From positions 248,001-312,000 of the forward strand of contig NZ_CP116256.1 of assembly GCF_027947575.1 (NCBI RefSeq): DNA of 64,000 nt, written 5' to 3'. Position 1 is the stretch's first letter; each line of letters starts with the position of its first letter. The notes beneath the pieces are model-generated. The model was given only the letters and a program-made list of their open reading frames with translations, did no database searches and was not told where the DNA came from. The position numbers and the translations under genes were made by a program. This document shows positions 38,107-44,630 of the stretch, piece after piece. The DNA comes from Streptomyces rubrogriseus (lineage in GTDB: Bacteria; Actinomycetota; Actinomycetes; Streptomycetales; Streptomycetaceae).

Positions 38107-39161
38107 CGGAGCTTCCCCGTCAACGCCAGGGACAGCAGCCGGTCGATCACCTCGGACAGTGGCATCCCCGCGGCCGCCATCATTCTCGGATAACGGCTGT
38201 ACGAGGTCATGCCGGGCAGGGTGTTGACCTCGTTGAGGACGACTTCCCCGTCCTCCTTGAGGAACATGTCCACGCGGGACAGCCCTCGGCATCCCAGCGC
38301 TCGGTACACGGTCTTCGCGGTCTCCTGGACGAGCGACCGCTTCTCCGCCGGGATGTCGGCGGGAACGACCGGCGTCGAGTTCTCCGAGCCGTTCTCGGGC
38401 TGCTCCTCCTGGTGGATCCGGAAGAATCCGTGGGAGAGCGCGATGCGGTCCACCTCGCCCGCGATCAGGTCGGGGTCGTTCCCCAGGATGGCGCAGCCGA
38501 TCTCGCTGCCGACGACGGCCGCCTCGATCAGCACCTTCGTGTCGTACCGCCGGGCGGACTCCACCGCGGTCGCCAGGTCTTCCGGCCGGGACACCTTGCT
38601 GACGCCGAAGGACGACCCCGAACGGGCCGGCTTCACGAAGACGGGATATGTGAGCCGGCCGGGATCGACGGTCTCGTCCCCCGTCACGGTCCAGAAATCC
38701 GGAGTGGCGATCCCCGCGCTCCTGGCGACGACGTACGCGAGGGATTTGTCCATGCACAGGGCGGAGCTCTGGACGTCGCAGCCCACGTACGGAATGCCGG
38801 AGAGCTCCAGCAGCCCCTGCGTCGCACCGTCCTCACCGAGGGTGCCGTGCAGGACGGGAAGGACGACGTCCAGGCGGACCGACCGATACCGCCCCTGCTC
38901 CAGGACGAGCAGCCCGTGCAGGCTCCGGTCCGGTGACAGCACGACCGGACGGCAGTCACCGTTCTCCCAGTCCGGGCCTGGACCGTCGCAGAGTCTCCAG
39001 GCGCCGTCCTTCGTGATCCCCACGAAGAAGGGCTGGTATTTTTCCGTGTCGAGGTTGCGCGCGACCTCCTGGGCGGACTTGACGGAAACGACGTGTTCTT
39101 CGGAAGAGCCCCCGAATACAATGCCGACCTTCAACCTGGCCAACTTGTCCGACTCAGCCAT
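38103..39161 (-). CDS. vanA: D-alanine-D-lactate ligase
   Basis: ATP-dependent ligase that joins D-Ala to D-lactate for the drug-resistant depsipeptide ends. It is 352 aa. It has the ATP-grasp ligase fold with EEHVVSVKSA (about 21-30), and FVKPARSGSSFGVSKV. The omega-loop FRIHQEEQPENGSEN has a histidine at position 250, equivalent to the VanA His that favours D-lactate over D-alanine; ordinary D-Ala-D-Ala ligases have Tyr here. The metal-binding region is VDMFLKEDGEVVLNEVNTLPG. It overlaps vanH by 8 bp and vanX by 4 bp. Confidence 0.98.
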   Translation of the reverse strand: MAESDKLARLKVGIVFGGSSEEHVVSVKSAQEVARNLDTEKYQPFFVGITKDGAWRLCDGPGPDWENGDCRPVVLSPDRSLHGLLVLEQGRYRSVRLDVVLPVLHGTLGEDGATQGLLELSGIPYVGCDVQSSALCMDKSLAYVVARSAGIATPDFWTVTGDETVDPGRLTYPVFVKPARSGSSFGVSKVSRPEDLATAVESARRYDTKVLIEAAVVGSEIGCAILGNDPDLIAGEVDRIALSHGFFRIHQEEQPENGSENSTPVVPADIPAEKRSLVQETAKTVYRALGCRGLSRVDMFLKEDGEVVLNEVNTLPGMTSYSRYPRMMAAAGMPLSEVIDRLLSLALTGKLR

Positions 39162-40185
39162 ACTGTTTCCTGCTTCCGAAATTGAGGCAGTTGATGATGG
39201 AGTTCTCGACCGTGTCCCTCAGGGCGTGGTCGGTGTAATAGGCGGTGTGCGGGCTGATGAGTACGTTCGGCATCTTTTGCAGCCGTGAGAGCCACGTGCT
39301 TTCGATGGTTCTGTTTCTGCAGTCGGCGTAGAAGATTCCTTCCTCGCCCTCGACGACATCCAGCGCCGCGCCACTCAATTTGCCGCTCTCCAACGCCGGT
39401 ACCAGTGCCTCGGTGTCGATGAGCGGGCCGCGTCCGGTATTGATGACGAACGCGCCCTTTTTCATCCGTCGGATACGTCTTTGATCGAGAAGGTGATGCG
39501 TGTCCGGGGTCAGCGGTACGTGAAGCGAAACGATGTCGCTCGACCGCAGCAACTCGTCGAGCGAGACGTAATCTGCCGCGATGGTGGGCCGATTTCCGTG
39601 GGCCAGCACGCGGGAGCCAAAACCCCGCAGCCTGTCCACGACCGCCGCACCGATACGCCCCGTCCCGATCACCCCGACGGTCAGGTCGCGCAGCTCCTTA
39701 CCGCGTATCTCGTTCAGCCGGTAGTCGTGCAGCTCCACGCGGCGAACGGTGGATTTCGCGTTGCGCACCGCCATCAGCATGAGCATCAGGGTGTAGTCGG
39801 CCACGCTGGCGGGGGAGTAGGCGACGTTCTCGACGGATATCCCCAGGCCGGCCGCGTATGCCACATCGATGTGGTTGTAACCGATACTCCGGGTGGATAT
39901 GTACGTCACGCCGGCTCGGTGGAGTGCACGGAGAGTGGCAGGCGTGACCGGGGCCTTGTGGTCAATGCTGATGCATTGATGTCCGGCCGCCAGCTCGGCG
40001 TTCTCTTCGCATACGGCGGCCTCCGTGAGATTTGCATCGACGCCGAAACGGGGCGCCGTGCGGCGGAACAATGCGGCCTCGTCCAGTCCGCAGCCGTAAA
40101 TCGTGATTTCCGTTACCGGAAGGGGCGATGACGGGGGAGGGGTCGAGGAGGGCGAAGAGGCCGAGGAGGACGAAGAGAAGGTCAT
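39154..40185 (-). CDS. vanH: D-lactate dehydrogenase VanH
   Basis: Reduces pyruvate to D-lactate with NADH/NADPH for VanA. It is 343 aa. A Ser/Pro-rich N-terminus (residues 2-24) precedes the catalytic domain. The Rossmann motif is VGVIGTGRIGAAVVDRL (about 160-176), and the D-2-hydroxyacid dehydrogenase catalytic elements are NTGRGPLIDTEAL (Arg), DVVEGEEGIFY (Glu) and LISPHTAYYTDHAL (His). It starts the vanHAX operon; a VanR box ends 23 bp upstream of ATG 40185. The base composition is somewhat lower in GC than neighbouring genes, perhaps reflecting transfer. Confidence 0.97.
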   Translation of the reverse strand: MTFSSSSSASSPSSTPPPSSPLPVTEITIYGCGLDEAALFRRTAPRFGVDANLTEAAVCEENAELAAGHQCISIDHKAPVTPATLRALHRAGVTYISTRSIGYNHIDVAYAAGLGISVENVAYSPASVADYTLMLMLMAVRNAKSTVRRVELHDYRLNEIRGKELRDLTVGVIGTGRIGAAVVDRLRGFGSRVLAHGNRPTIAADYVSLDELLRSSDIVSLHVPLTPDTHHLLDQRRIRRMKKGAFVINTGRGPLIDTEALVPALESGKLSGAALDVVEGEEGIFYADCRNRTIESTWLSRLQKMPNVLISPHTAYYTDHALRDTVENSIINCLNFGSRKQYG

Positions 40186-40207
40186 GCCTCTATTCAAGGC
40201 GTCTCGG

Positions 40208-40250
40208 TGTTGCCGTCCCGTATGCGCTTTTCGATATCCTGACGATATAT
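40208..40250. promoter_or_regulatory. VanR box upstream of vanH
   Basis: A 43-bp element shared with two other sites in the cluster. Its core CGTATGCGCTTTTCGATA continues through TCCTGACGATATAT, with two CGATAT direct repeats 11 bp apart, as expected for an OmpR-type regulator dimer. It begins 23 bp from the vanH start codon. Confidence 0.88.
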
Positions 40251-40282
40251 TACCTACCAGTAATGTCGGGTGGGGGGGCGGC

Positions 40283-41476
40283 TCATCGACCACGTCGCTT
40301 CATATAGAGGTCGAAGGTCCGGTACACCAACGGCCGCAGCGGCAGGTCCCACTCGCCCACGTACCGCACGGCCCGACCCCCGGTGCCGACCTTGAACTTG
40401 ATCAGTCCGACGTGCGGATCGTCCGCGTCGAGGGTCGGAGTGATGCCGCGCAGGTCGTAGACGTCGCAGTCGGCGGCGAACGCGTCGCGGATCATCGCCC
40501 ACTGGCAGGCGTTGGAGCCACGCACCTCACGCTTCCCGGTGGACGAGGCGCCGTAGGCGTACACGGCCCGGGTGCCGACCCGGACCATGACGGTGGCGGC
40601 GACCAGGTCGCCGTGGTGGCGGGCCAGGTAGAGCTTGATCCGCTCGGGGTCCTCGGCACCGAGCACGGTGAACATGGTCGCGAAGTAGCTCAGCGGCCGG
40701 GGGGTGAAGCGGTCCCGGTCGGCGGTGTGGACGTAGAGGTCGTGGAACGCCTTCACGTCGTCCGCGACCGCCGCCTCCCCGACCGCGGCATACCCAGGCG
40801 TGGCGTTACCGAGCGTGACCTCGACGCCCTCCTTGGCTGCCTTCCGTATGTTGCGCCGCCAGAGCTGGTTCATGCCCTTGAGCAGGTCGTCCTCAGTTCT
40901 TCCGGCCAGTGGCACCTCGTACTTGAACTGCGGATGCCCGACCCCGAAGCCGTCTTCCGGGCTCTGCGGCAGCCAGCCGGCGTCCCTGAGCCGACCGGTC
41001 ACGTGGGCGCCGACCGGATCCGTCCACCGAGTGGGCAGTCCGGTGAGTCGCCGCGTGCCCGGATCGGCGATGCCCACCTTGATCTCGTCCGCGCTCCACA
41101 CGTCCGTGCACACCGGCGGACCGACCCGTATCGCGAACGCACCACGCGCCTTGAGATACGCGGCCAGCGGATCGAGCCACGCGTCGATGTCACCGGTCCA
41201 GTCGATGACCGGCCCCTCGGGCAGATAGGCCAGCGTGAAGCGCTCGAGCCGTGGCACCGGCCGGTGCAGGACGAGCCCGGCACCGACCAGCCGCCCGCCG
41301 TCGAACCAGCCCAGGGACTCGCTGCGCCACTCGGTCTTGACACGCCCCCAGGCGGGGGTCTGCAGGAAGCTGACCGTGCGCTGCGCCCGCACGAACGCCA
41401 GGTGCTCTGCTGCGCTGATCGGCCGGACGGTCGGCCGCGCCGGGGCCGCTGTTCGTACTGGTTCGCTGTAGGCCAT
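40283..41476 (-). CDS. vanK: FemX-like peptidyltransferase VanK
   Basis: A FemAB/FmhB-type aminoacyl-tRNA:peptidoglycan transferase that adds the cross-bridge glycine to precursors ending in D-Lac, which the housekeeping FemX cannot use. It is 397 aa. The two GNAT-like domains carry TPAWGRVKTEWRSESLGWFDGG and LLKGMNQLWRRNIRKAAKEGVEV (the family's W-R-R-N-I-R-K-A helix), then YLARHHGDLVAATVMVRVGTRAVYAYGASSTGKREVRGSNACQW. ATG 41476 (an in-frame TTG four codons upstream is less likely). A VanR box precedes it with the same 23-bp spacing as vanH. Confidence 0.96.
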   Translation of the reverse strand: MAYSEPVRTAAPARPTVRPISAAEHLAFVRAQRTVSFLQTPAWGRVKTEWRSESLGWFDGGRLVGAGLVLHRPVPRLERFTLAYLPEGPVIDWTGDIDAWLDPLAAYLKARGAFAIRVGPPVCTDVWSADEIKVGIADPGTRRLTGLPTRWTDPVGAHVTGRLRDAGWLPQSPEDGFGVGHPQFKYEVPLAGRTEDDLLKGMNQLWRRNIRKAAKEGVEVTLGNATPGYAAVGEAAVADDVKAFHDLYVHTADRDRFTPRPLSYFATMFTVLGAEDPERIKLYLARHHGDLVAATVMVRVGTRAVYAYGASSTGKREVRGSNACQWAMIRDAFAADCDVYDLRGITPTLDADDPHVGLIKFKVGTGGRAVRYVGEWDLPLRPLVYRTFDLYMKRRGR

Positions 41477-41498
41477 GGCCCCAGTCAAGGCGGCGGGG

Positions 41499-41541
41499 TG
41501 TTGTCGACGCGTATGCGGTTTTCGATACGCCGACGATATGT
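41499..41541. promoter_or_regulatory. VanR box upstream of vanK
   Basis: Second copy of the 43-bp element; core CGTATGCGGTTTTCGATA then CGCCGACGATATGT. It begins 23 bp from the vanK ATG. The short leader (CCAGTCAAGGCGGCGG read on the plus strand) is almost the same as the vanJ leader. Confidence 0.9.
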
Positions 41542-41671
41542 TCCCGGCCGGGCTGGGGGCTGGGGCTGGGGCTGGGCCGGGACGGACCGAACCGACCCCG
41601 CCCCCTGCCCCGTCAGACGATGCTCACAATCGGGCCGACCAAGTCGACCAGGCCAACGAGGCTCACCAGGC

Positions 41672-42760
41672 TCACCAGCTGACCCCGGCCGCCACGGGCA
41701 GATGGTCGCTGCCGGTGGCGGGGAGCGTCCATGAACCCGTCGGCTCCACGCCGCGGACCAGGATCTGGTCGATCCGCGCCACCGGGAACTTCGCCGGCCA
41801 GCTGAAGCCGAACCCGTCCCCGGCCGTTTCCTGCACCGAGTGCAGCTGCGAGGTGATGCCCGTCAACGCGCGGTCGTCCACAGTGCCGTTCAGGTCGCCG
41901 AGCAGCGCGACCCGCTCACTGCGGTCGGCGGCGAGGGCCGCGCCGAGCGCCCGCGCGTTCCGGTCGCGGGAGTCCGTCCAGAATCCCGACCGGGGATTGA
42001 GCCGTACAGAGCCCAGGTGGGCCACGTACACCACCAGTGGGCCCTTGTCCGTGGCCACCGTGGTGCGCAGCGCGCGATTGCCGGCCATCGTGACGTCGGC
42101 CGGTTTGGTCTCCGCCAACGGCCCGTAGTCCGTCGCGATGTCGACCGGCCGGGTGCCCGACAACGGCAGCTTGCTCCACACCCCGACCGTGCCCTGCACC
42201 GTGTGGTAGGGATACTCCCTGGCCAGCCCCTTCTCGTACACCTCCCGGTCCTGGGCGGTGATCTCCTCCAGCGCCAGTACGTCCACTCCGGAGGCGGCCA
42301 GGTCGCGGGCGGTGCCGGCCGGGTCCGGGTTCTCGGCGCCAACGTTGTGGGAGGCCATGGTGAGGTCGCCGCCCGAGCCGGACTTGTCGCCGAGCAGTCC
42401 GCCGAAGAGGCTCAGCCACACCGTGACCGGCAGCACCAGCGCGGTCACCGCGGCGGGGGAGCGGCGCCACAGCGCTCCGGTGGCCAGCACGGGGAGGAAC
42501 AGGCCGAACCACGGCAGGAAGGTTTCGACCAGGCTGCCGACGGACCCGAACCGGTTCGGAATCTCCGCGTGCAGCATCATCACGAGGCCCAGCAGCAGCG
42601 CCGACACCGTGAGTACCGGCGCACGCCTCCAGAGCTCCGGCCGGGCGGCGCTGCGGAGCGCTGTCCGGGAAAGCCGTCTCCGTGCCGGTGCCGGTACCGC
42701 TGCGGTCGGCGGCAGTGGGACTGCTGGTGCTGGCGGCGGCGGTGGTGAGGTCTGACGCAT
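41672..42760 (-). CDS. vanJ: Teicoplanin-resistance membrane protein VanJ
   Basis: A 362-aa membrane protein. The Pro-rich N-terminus is followed by three membrane segments (APVLTVSALLLGLVMMLHA, VETFLPWFGLFLPVLATGAL, AAVTALVLPVTVWLSLFGGLLG, about 45-122), then an extracytoplasmic endonuclease/exonuclease/phosphatase-fold domain: TMASHNVGAENPDP, DVLALEEITAQD, VALLGDLNGTVDD, and ATGSDHLPVAAG (the D-H pair of the active site). VanJ of S. coelicolor is described as giving teicoplanin resistance independently of vanHAX, perhaps by acting on undecaprenyl-linked intermediates. ATG 42760; a VanR box begins 23 bp upstream. Confidence 0.95.
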   Translation of the reverse strand: MRQTSPPPPPAPAVPLPPTAAVPAPARRRLSRTALRSAARPELWRRAPVLTVSALLLGLVMMLHAEIPNRFGSVGSLVETFLPWFGLFLPVLATGALWRRSPAAVTALVLPVTVWLSLFGGLLGDKSGSGGDLTMASHNVGAENPDPAGTARDLAASGVDVLALEEITAQDREVYEKGLAREYPYHTVQGTVGVWSKLPLSGTRPVDIATDYGPLAETKPADVTMAGNRALRTTVATDKGPLVVYVAHLGSVRLNPRSGFWTDSRDRNARALGAALAADRSERVALLGDLNGTVDDRALTGITSQLHSVQETAGDGFGFSWPAKFPVARIDQILVRGVEPTGSWTLPATGSDHLPVAAGVSW

Positions 42761-42782
42761 GCGCCCAGTCAACGCGGCGGCG

Positions 42783-42825
42783 TGTTGCCGGCACGTATGC
42801 GGTTTTCGATATGCCGACGATATGT
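42783..42825. promoter_or_regulatory. VanR box shared by vanJ and vanR
   Basis: Third copy of the element; core CGTATGCGGTTTTCGATA then TGCCGACGATATGT. It lies between divergent vanJ and vanR, 23 bp from each start codon. It would let VanR-P activate vanJ and autoregulate vanRS. Confidence 0.92.
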
Positions 42826-42847
42826 GGCGACTCGTAACCTCGAAACC

Positions 42848-43543
42848 ATGCGTGTGCTGATTGTCGAGGACGAGCCCTACCTGGCGGAGGCGATCCGCGA
42901 CGGCCTGCGCCTGGAGGCCATCGCGGCCGACATCGCGGGCGACGGCGACACAGCGCTGGAGCTGCTGAGCGTCAACGCCTACGACATCGCCGTCCTCGAC
43001 CGCGACATCCCGGGCCCGTCCGGTGACGAGATCGCCGAACGCATCGTCGCCTCCGGCAGCGGCATGCCGATCCTCATGCTCACCGCGGCCGACCGCCTCG
43101 ACGACAAGGCGTCCGGCTTCGGACTCGGCGCCGACGACTACCTGACCAAGCCGTTCGAACTGCAGGAGCTCGCGCTCAGGCTCCGGGCACTCGACCGCAG
43201 GCGGGCCCACAGCAGGCCTCCGGTGCGGGAGATCGCCGGCCTGCGCCTGGACCCGTTCCGCAGGGAGGTCTACCGGGGCGGCCGCTACGTCGCGTTGACC
43301 AGAAAGCAGTTCGCCGTGCTCGAAGTCCTGGTCGCTGCCGACGGAGGCGTCGTCAGCGCAGAGGAACTTCTGGAACGCGCGTGGGACGAGAACGCCGACC
43401 CGTTCACCAACGCCGTCCGCATCACCGTCTCGGCCCTGCGCAAGCGACTGGGCGAACCGGGGATCATCGCCACCGTGCCGGGCGTCGGCTACCGCATCGA
43501 CACGGCACCCGTCACCGAGCAGGCGGGCGGCGACAGTGGATAG
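42848..43543 (+). CDS. vanR: Response regulator VanR
   Basis: OmpR-family response regulator of 231 aa. Receiver: MRVLIVEDEPYLAEAIRDGL (acidic pair E8-D9), phosphorylated D51 in AVLDRDIPGPSGDE, LTAADRLDDK with the conserved Thr, and K in YLTKPF. The C-terminal DNA-binding domain includes VALTRKQFAVLEVLVAADGGVVSAEELLERAWDEN and TVSALRKRLGEPGIIATVPGVGYR. It activates vanH, vanK, vanJ and its own operon through the three boxes. vanS overlaps its 3' end by 8 bp. Confidence 0.98.
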   Translation: MRVLIVEDEPYLAEAIRDGLRLEAIAADIAGDGDTALELLSVNAYDIAVLDRDIPGPSGDEIAERIVASGSGMPILMLTAADRLDDKASGFGLGADDYLTKPFELQELALRLRALDRRRAHSRPPVREIAGLRLDPFRREVYRGGRYVALTRKQFAVLEVLVAADGGVVSAEELLERAWDENADPFTNAVRITVSALRKRLGEPGIIATVPGVGYRIDTAPVTEQAGGDSG

Positions 43544-44630
43544 GAGACCCGGCCTGAGCGTCCGACTGAAGCTCACCCTCAGCTACGCGGGATTCCTCAT
43601 GCTCGCCGGTGCTCTGCTGCTCGCAGCCGTGGGGGTGTTCCTCGTACGACAGGGGTGGTTGATCACCAATGAATGGGGGTCGGTGCGAGCGACTCCCGGC
43701 ACGATCTTCCTCCGCAGTTTCGCGCCCACGGCAGCCTGGGTCATGGCGTTCCTCCTGGTGTTCGGCCTCGTGGGCGGATGGTTCCTCGCCGGACGCATGC
43801 TCGCCCCGCTGGACCGCATCACGGAGGCCACCCGCACGGCAGCGACCGGCTCCCTCGCCCACCGCATCCGGCTGCCGGGCCGCAGGGACGAGTACCGCGA
43901 ACTGGCCGACGCCTTCGACGAGATGCTCGCCCGCCTCGAAGCCCACGTGGCCGAACAGCGGCGCTTCGCGGCCAACGCCTCGCACGAGCTGCGCACCCCG
44001 CTGGCCGTCTCGAAGGCCATCCTCGACGTGGCCCGCACCGACCCGCACCAGGATCCCGGCGAGATCATCGACCGCCTCCACGCCGTGAACACCAGGGCGA
44101 TCGACCTCACCGAGGCCCTGCTCCTGCTCAGCCGCGCCGGCCAGCGCTCCTTCACCCGGGAGCAGGTCGACCTGTCCCTCCTCGCCGAGGAAGCCACCGA
44201 GACCCTGCTCCCCTTCGCCGAGAAGCACGGTGTCACCCTCGAAACCAGCGGCCACGTAACCCTGGCCCTCGGATCACCGGCCCTCCTCCTCCAACTGACC
44301 ACGAACCTCGTCCACAACGCGATCGTTCACAACCTCCCCGGCCGGGGCAGGGTCTGGATCCACACCGCCCCCGGCCCCCGAACCACGCGGCTCGTCGTCG
44401 AGAACACCGGCGACCTGATCAGCCCCGACCAGGCCTCGACCCTCACCGAACCCTTCCAGCGCGGTACCGAACGCGTACACACCGACCATCCCGGCGTCGG
44501 CCTGGGCCTGGCCATCGTCAACACCATCACCCAGGCCCATGACGGCACCCTCACCCTCACCCCACGCCACAGCGGGGGCCTCCGCGTCACGGTGGAGCTG
44601 CCCGAGGCCGCCCCGTACACCGGCAGATGA
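43536..44630 (+). CDS. vanS: Vancomycin-sensing histidine kinase VanS
   Basis: A 364-aa membrane kinase/phosphatase for VanR. Two transmembrane helices (about 14-36 and 64-87) enclose a short external loop of about 27 aa (RQGWLITNEWGSVRATPGTI) that is the presumed drug-sensing region. The HAMP-like segment (GRMLAPLDRITEATRTAATGSLAHRI) leads to the H-box with H150 in ANASHELRTPLAVSK, and the ATPase domain has the N-box LTTNLVHNAIVHN, G1 around VVENTGD and G2 around HPGVGLGLAIVNTI. GTG 43536 overlaps vanR. No separate sensor lipoprotein or accessory vanY/vanW gene follows. Confidence 0.97.
   Translation: MDRRPGLSVRLKLTLSYAGFLMLAGALLLAAVGVFLVRQGWLITNEWGSVRATPGTIFLRSFAPTAAWVMAFLLVFGLVGGWFLAGRMLAPLDRITEATRTAATGSLAHRIRLPGRRDEYRELADAFDEMLARLEAHVAEQRRFAANASHELRTPLAVSKAILDVARTDPHQDPGEIIDRLHAVNTRAIDLTEALLLLSRAGQRSFTREQVDLSLLAEEATETLLPFAEKHGVTLETSGHVTLALGSPALLLQLTTNLVHNAIVHNLPGRGRVWIHTAPGPRTTRLVVENTGDLISPDQASTLTEPFQRGTERVHTDHPGVGLGLAIVNTITQAHDGTLTLTPRHSGGLRVTVELPEAAPYTGR

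Follow-up and report, generated by a model that had tools for sequence, protein, structure and literature searches.

Why should the operators of one resistance cluster all stand at exactly the same distance from the start codons that they serve? The van cluster of Streptomyces rubrogriseus raises this question. It lies in a window of 64,000 nucleotides (positions 248001-312000 of the single 8.41-Mb contig NZ_CP116256.1, assembly GCF_027947575.1; coordinates below are those of the window), with vanX, vanA, vanH, vanK and vanJ in this order on the minus strand and vanR and vanS on the plus strand. An original prediction, made from the sequence alone, had described three 43-bp VanR boxes at a rigid spacing and had explained them by duplication of one promoter module with similar, very short leaders. 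Judging from the comparisons presented here, we consider it highly likely that the 43-bp element serves as VanR operator in a class II promoter activated in the OmpR/PhoB manner, and that transcription would begin with the A of the start codon. The spacing would then be rigid because operator, -10 hexamer and start codon are locked together, with no leader between them.

The three boxes have the sequence described earlier, with TGTTG, CGTATGCG, TTTTCGATA and GACGATAT in register across all of them, and the gap between box and ATG is 22 bp for vanH, vanK, vanJ and vanR alike (A of the ATG at 40185 (-), 41476 (-), 42760 (-) and 42848 (+), respectively). The third box serves vanJ and vanR symmetrically, at an equal distance from both starts, a pattern that recurs in relatives. 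Two details needed correction: the CGATAT direct repeats hold overall, except that the first repeat of the vanK box reads CGATAC, and the 22-mers of vanK and vanJ, said to be almost identical, share only 18 of 22 bases (82%; vanH-vanK 68%, vanH-vanJ 59%). The vanJ and vanK boxes themselves are 91% identical.

A fixed-position pattern of 21 positions, TATCG-N6-TATCGAAAA-NN-GCATACG, allowing up to 3 mismatches, has three matches in the window and none in 100 dinucleotide shuffles. A genome-wide motif search had been proposed as a check; run with this pattern and the same 3 mismatches, it returned only these three boxes in 8,411,861 bp. At this stringency the strain has sites in the van cluster alone, where three boxes serve four genes. 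A matrix of 43 columns, derived from 128 boxes (those of relatives and of the window), gives the three boxes 64.5 to 77.4 bits; elsewhere in the window no place exceeds -30.1, and ten base-shuffled windows yield -17.8 at most. A looser repeat pattern finds 17 places genome-wide at up to 2 mismatches, and at up to 1 mismatch the three boxes only. The downstream half of the box joined to the -10 was also tried as a pattern for more targets and rejected as noise, with 183 places against 227 in the reversed control. One off-cluster place, G000:C1:4866970-4867003, has a single mismatch to this downstream half and -10; for so short a pattern the reversed control is equally frequent.

Conservation of the 22 bp between box and gene was followed over 144 loci, made up of the window, 13 loci from a named-genome collection and 130 from the genus (12 of the latter fetched for holding VanR without a box at 2 mismatches); together they yield 180 distinct boxes at up to 3 mismatches. 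An ATG stands at p+62 in 134 and at p+63 in 20 of the boxes (154 together; p refers to the box match). T-12 and T-7 are present in all 121 aligned boxes, with the consensus TTGACT, so that the region between box and ATG is constrained, and a -10 hexamer lies 6 to 7 bases before the start codon on both sides of the box. One article (PMC3160421) counts vanH, vanK and vanR of S. coelicolor among its 13 genes documented as leaderless, citing Hong et al. 2004 as the source; the predictor presented in the same article itself missed vanH. The window agrees with the three published S. coelicolor promoter stretches at 22/23, 22/23 and 21/23 bases (vanH, vanK and vanR). Since the leaderless starts are documented, the S. 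coelicolor sequence is nearly equal and the -10 is invariant, the best reading of the 22 bp is as core promoter, not mRNA, for vanH, vanK and vanR, which contradicts the short leaders proposed before. By analogy, vanJ may likewise have a leaderless start, with its 22 bp as promoter.

The box appears to face both ways. A divergent open reading frame (ORF) of more than 100 codons adjoins 68 boxes; the distance of its start from the first conserved T is 26 bp in 47 boxes, 25 bp in 20 and 27 bp in one, and in 63 of the 68 this ORF is VanR. On this side too a -10 is fixed: all 47 divergent starts that were aligned (45 of them VanR) have T-13, A-12 and T-8. Counted from either start, the box spans -65 to -23, and on both sides 10 bp lie between the -10 and the closest presumed half-site. 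The TATCG-TATCG spacing of 11 bp is exact and the second pair is degenerate; that the box is built of two opposed half-site pairs is a weakly supported suggestion. A plain palindrome was rejected as a description, its symmetry being marginal.

Is the box read by VanR? Among 392 genomes of the genus, 164 hold the box together with a VanR orthologue, 17 VanR alone, 9 the box alone and 202 neither (Fisher p 2e-77, uncorrected for relatedness). Here the box pattern was counted at up to 2 mismatches (173 genomes; zero for the reversed control), and a VanR orthologue (181 genomes) was a best match with E below 1e-110. That cut-off was chosen after the list was seen; some regulator reaches 1e-70 in 390 of the 392 genomes, and no best match was seen between about 1e-99 and 1e-122. 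Of the 17 genomes with VanR alone, twelve were fetched: in eight a box appears once 3 mismatches are allowed, in one the box is degenerate (36.2 bits), and in three nothing scores above 10 bits. Across a sample of the phylum, 8 of 296 genomes have a box match, with 3 matches among the 287 outside the genus: two adjoin VanR, and the third (L233; 28.5 bits, no van gene found in its 3 kb) was set aside as chance.

The box also follows the divergence of VanR. In the named-genome collection, the first 33 of 80 fetched loci were scored with the matrix: a box above 10 bits is present in 14 of the 15 loci whose VanR has at least 72% identity (two of these weak, L013 at 28.9 and L015 at 23.2 bits) and in 0 of the 18 with VanR at about 60% identity or less. 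Loci holding the box come from Streptomyces, Nocardia, Glycomyces, Solirubrobacter, Actinoplanes, Cellulomonas, Kitasatospora, Microbacterium, other Microbacteriaceae and one more actinomycete. Assigned by position, the presumed recognition helix is identical in 11 of the 15 loci; L010 and L014 each differ by a single change, L015 by two, and L006, which alone of the 15 lacks a box, by three. Co-occurrence, and absence of the box where VanR has diverged, are the pattern expected if VanR reads the box; with the boxes lying before known VanR-controlled units, this supports their original assignment, and they are very probably VanR sites. Four of the nine genomes with a box alone had their loci inspected (L116, L118, L152 and L177). 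L118 has kept the box and vanJ, with only a 100-residue stretch of vanS adjoining the box, and its genome gives no VanR match at E below 1e-110; the regulator seems to have been lost.

What the box precedes is diverse. The first recognised gene within 900 bp of the 180 boxes is VanZ in 38, VanY in 36, VanJ in 28, VanH in 26, VanK in 21, MurF in 14, VanA in 1, VanR in 1 and none in 15 (VanY and VanZ had one reference each by Pfam, and MurF was named by sequence). Box, -10 and start codon keep one register before six structural gene families. At the gene level, vanRS travelling with vanY, vanZ and vanJ, and MurF genes beside van genes, have already been described (PMC8698665). L107 and L129 are one and the same place; there a well-preserved box stands some 110 bp upstream of a gene resembling serine beta-lactamases (an assignment tested with PF00144 for L129 only), and p+62 holds no start codon. 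The gene of L110, paired with L132, has a similar N-terminus, and L131 has a near-identical promoter region.

In 134 of the 180 boxes, the structural gene begins at the locked codon itself (126 ATG, 8 GTG), and in 23 the locked ATG opens a separate short ORF; in 22 others either no gene is recognised or no start stands at that place, and a contig end truncates one MurF. Leaving out one short ORF before a VanR fragment (L193), the remaining 22 are 14 to 63 codons long, and 20 of them join the in-frame start of the gene by the four-base overlap RTGA (murF 8, vanK 7, vanJ 4, vanY 1), the exceptions being L115 and L138. At other out-of-frame positions of the same loci, RTGA occurs in 168 of 1107 cases (15%). 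The p value of 3e-15, computed with 14.6% (half the RTGA share among 312 upstream stops), is too strong, the loci being related, yet four genes and many ORF lengths are involved. These mini-ORFs offer what looks like independent support for translation of the locked ATG as the first codon of the message. The window itself contains no RTGA mini-ORF; they were found in its genus and once in Glycomyces (L004). In the boxes before murF or vanK of L171, L156, L139 and L202, mini-ORFs of 14-41 codons run from the locked ATG to an RTGA junction, and several in this group begin M-S/T/P-Y-S-E, like VanK. In L204, L197, L225 and L177, the locked position holds a GTG, from which a similar start runs in frame into MurF.

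A mechanism that would join these features is as follows. Phosphorylated VanR would bind two half-sites spaced by 11 bp next to the -35 region, leaving 10 bp between the presumed proximal half-site and the -10, and a second half-site pair facing the opposite way would let one box drive both vanR and its neighbour. RNA polymerase would set +1 seven bases after the -10, on the A of the start codon; because +1 would be the start codon, the spacing could not drift without loss of leaderless translation. Genes starting further downstream would use a leaderless mini-ORF joined by the RTGA overlap. A broader proposal, which we hold to be about evenly balanced, is that box, -10 and start codon form a portable unit that came to stand in front of six or more unrelated cell-wall genes (vanH, vanK, vanJ, vanY, vanZ and murF) as well as vanR. 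Because the message would start at the locked codon, each gene would have to begin there or be joined through an RTGA mini-ORF; if so, actinomycetes would rely on leaderless translation for their induced response to glycopeptides, with mini-ORFs as required adapters.

Three other explanations deserve comparison with a leaderless VanR promoter. The boxes could be VanR sites followed by true 22-nt untranslated leaders, with transcription from the box edge and a spacing fixed by recent duplication. The constant 22 bp of the window and the likeness of vanJ to vanK, in boxes and 22-mers, would suit this account, which we nevertheless regard as highly improbable: three of the four genes have documented leaderless starts in S. 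coelicolor, an invariant -10 occupies the supposed leader, and RTGA mini-ORFs are opened by the very ATG in question. Nor are boxes within a genome more alike than boxes between genomes. Over 65 bp in 19 loci, similarity is 75.3% within the same genome, 74.2% between different genes of different genomes and 76.3% for the same gene in different genomes, so that we rejected recent duplication within the locus; the original idea of one duplicated promoter module may still hold for an old duplication.

VanR might also bind the TATCG repeats alone, with CATACG and GCAAC forming part of the -35 region or serving a second regulator; the repeats would then overlap the -35 region for vanR and sit upstream, at -62 to -47, for vanJ, vanK and vanH. 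In favour, the box differs in sequence between its halves, and the signals for symmetry and repetition are marginal. Against it, all blocks are kept together before one-sided and two-sided promoters and in other genera. We think this arrangement possible but unlikely. Extremely improbable, in our judgement, is that another factor travelling with the van genes reads the box. Such a factor would account for the 9 of 173 box genomes without VanR at E below 1e-110, and VanR binding is itself predicted from comparison. Against it stand L002, L003 and L008, where a box is present and vanR and vanS are the only hits of seven van proteins in 20 kb, the absence of the box where VanR and its presumed recognition helix have diverged, and, among the four box-only loci inspected, L118, which retains just the VanS stretch.

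Several observations weigh against the leaderless VanR promoter that we favour. An ATG at p+62 or p+63 is missing from 26 of the 180 boxes, of which 10 have GTG there, 2 an ATG at p+61 and 14 neither. The best reverse-complement correlation of the half-sites, 0.338, barely passes the 95% limit of 0.320 and falls one base off the axis, with 0.054 on the exact axis; the 11-bp repeat is marginal as well (matrix autocorrelation at lag 11, p 0.041). L006 (Agromyces sp. Root81) has a VanR of 85% identity and vanHAX without a box; as its presumed recognition helix also carries three changes, this locus is a candidate for switched binding specificity. The nine genomes with a box and no VanR at E below 1e-110 count on the same side. 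Leaderless transcripts as a class are reported to be under-represented among glycopeptide-responsive genes of S. coelicolor (PMC7947799), and published reporters gave about 20-fold induction for vanH and about 40-fold for vanJ, with vanJ the more responsive on plates (PMC9779433). By its primer, the vanH fragment of the latter study corresponds to positions 40212-40735 and ends at -27, without the -10. The vector may have supplied a -10, and its absence from the fragment may be why vanH responded less than vanJ; this fits a damaged promoter and leaves the residual activity unexplained.

Class II promoters activated by PhoB/OmpR-type regulators, of the pho-box kind, are the known class for comparison. 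The van promoters resemble them in having an OmpR/PhoB-type regulator, putative half-site repeats spaced by 11 bp and a presumed operator edge 10 bp from the -10, and differ in that the VanR operator, with its presumed half-sites, is longer (43 bp), bidirectional and tied to a probable leaderless start. The VanRS regulon of S. coelicolor A3(2) has the same four units, vanRS, vanJ, vanK and vanHAX (PMC10345050), with core promoters nearly identical for three of them and vanH, vanK and vanR listed as leaderless (PMC3160421); here, in contrast, we define a box of constant register and trace it across 392 genomes of the genus. VanR sites in enterococci of types A and B likewise activate resistance and regulatory promoters, whereas VanR there has less than 20% protein identity to that of S. 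coelicolor, and the upstream regions are divergent, according to a 2021 structure paper (PMC8329863). The van mini-ORFs share their four-base overlap with a mycobacterial arrangement in which the TGA stop of a leaderless short ORF overlaps the next start, described as coupled (Shell et al. 2015, PMC4633059); in M. tuberculosis, translation has also proved to be coupled by an AUGA overlap, although the transcript concerned has a leader (PMC11260477). The van mini-ORFs differ in being repeated within one response-regulator regulon (murF, vanK, vanJ and vanY), their leaderless state being predicted from the promoter.

VanR control, leaderless van starts and RTGA coupling are already known. In the open-access literature searched, we found no Streptomyces VanR box, locked geometry or van mini-ORFs; an earlier promoter alignment may exist. 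The DNA sequences recognised by S. coelicolor VanR were stated in 2021 to be not yet known (PMC8329863), and the box offers a testable site and geometry for this structurally solved regulator. As a motif it marks likely VanR targets in genomes, vanZ, vanY and murF beside the classic genes. It also turns an odd spacing into a rule, in which operator, -10 and start codon would be locked because there is no leader, and the recurrent RTGA mini-ORFs provide a natural experiment on the passage of ribosomes from a leaderless message to the next gene.

Features of the van cluster in the window, with the basis of each assignment
Feature	Positions	Strand	Basis or remark
vanH	39154..40185	-	NCBIfam vanH-Sc, 724 bits (cut-off 650); start codon is the predicted first mRNA base
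VanR box of vanHAX (putative site)	40208..40250	-	-65 to -23 of vanH start
-10 hexamer of vanH, TTGAAT	40192..40197	-	-12 to -7; sequence and alignment of relatives
vanK, Fem-type ligase	40283..41476	-	Pfam FemAB PF02388
VanR box of vanK (putative site)	41499..41541	-	Pattern and matrix matches
-10 hexamer of vanK, TTGACT	41483..41488	-	Sequence and alignment of relatives
vanJ	41672..42760	-	NCBIfam vanJ equivalog, 726 bits (cut-off 700)
VanR box common to vanJ and vanR (putative site)	42783..42825	none	-65 to -23 from either start
-10 hexamer of vanJ, TTGACT	42767..42772	-	Sequence and alignment; no published vanJ start seen
-10 hexamer of vanR, TAACCT	42835..42840	+	-13 to -8; alignment of divergent starts
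vanR, OmpR/PhoB-type response regulator	42848..43543	+	Pfam PF00072 and PF00486
vanS sensor kinase	43536..44630	+	Best NCBIfam model VanS-O, 459 bits, under its cut-off of 720

The names vanX and vanA rest on position and likeness, and the other van names on family models or Pfam. For VanR the best NCBIfam model is vanR-O, at 457 bits, under the curated cut-off of 505 bits. No Rfam family reaches its gathering score within positions 40000-43000. The genome stands close to S. coelicolor: of four published S. coelicolor primers, one has 4 mismatches at best in this genome, which is not a credible match, and the other three match with 0-2 mismatches.

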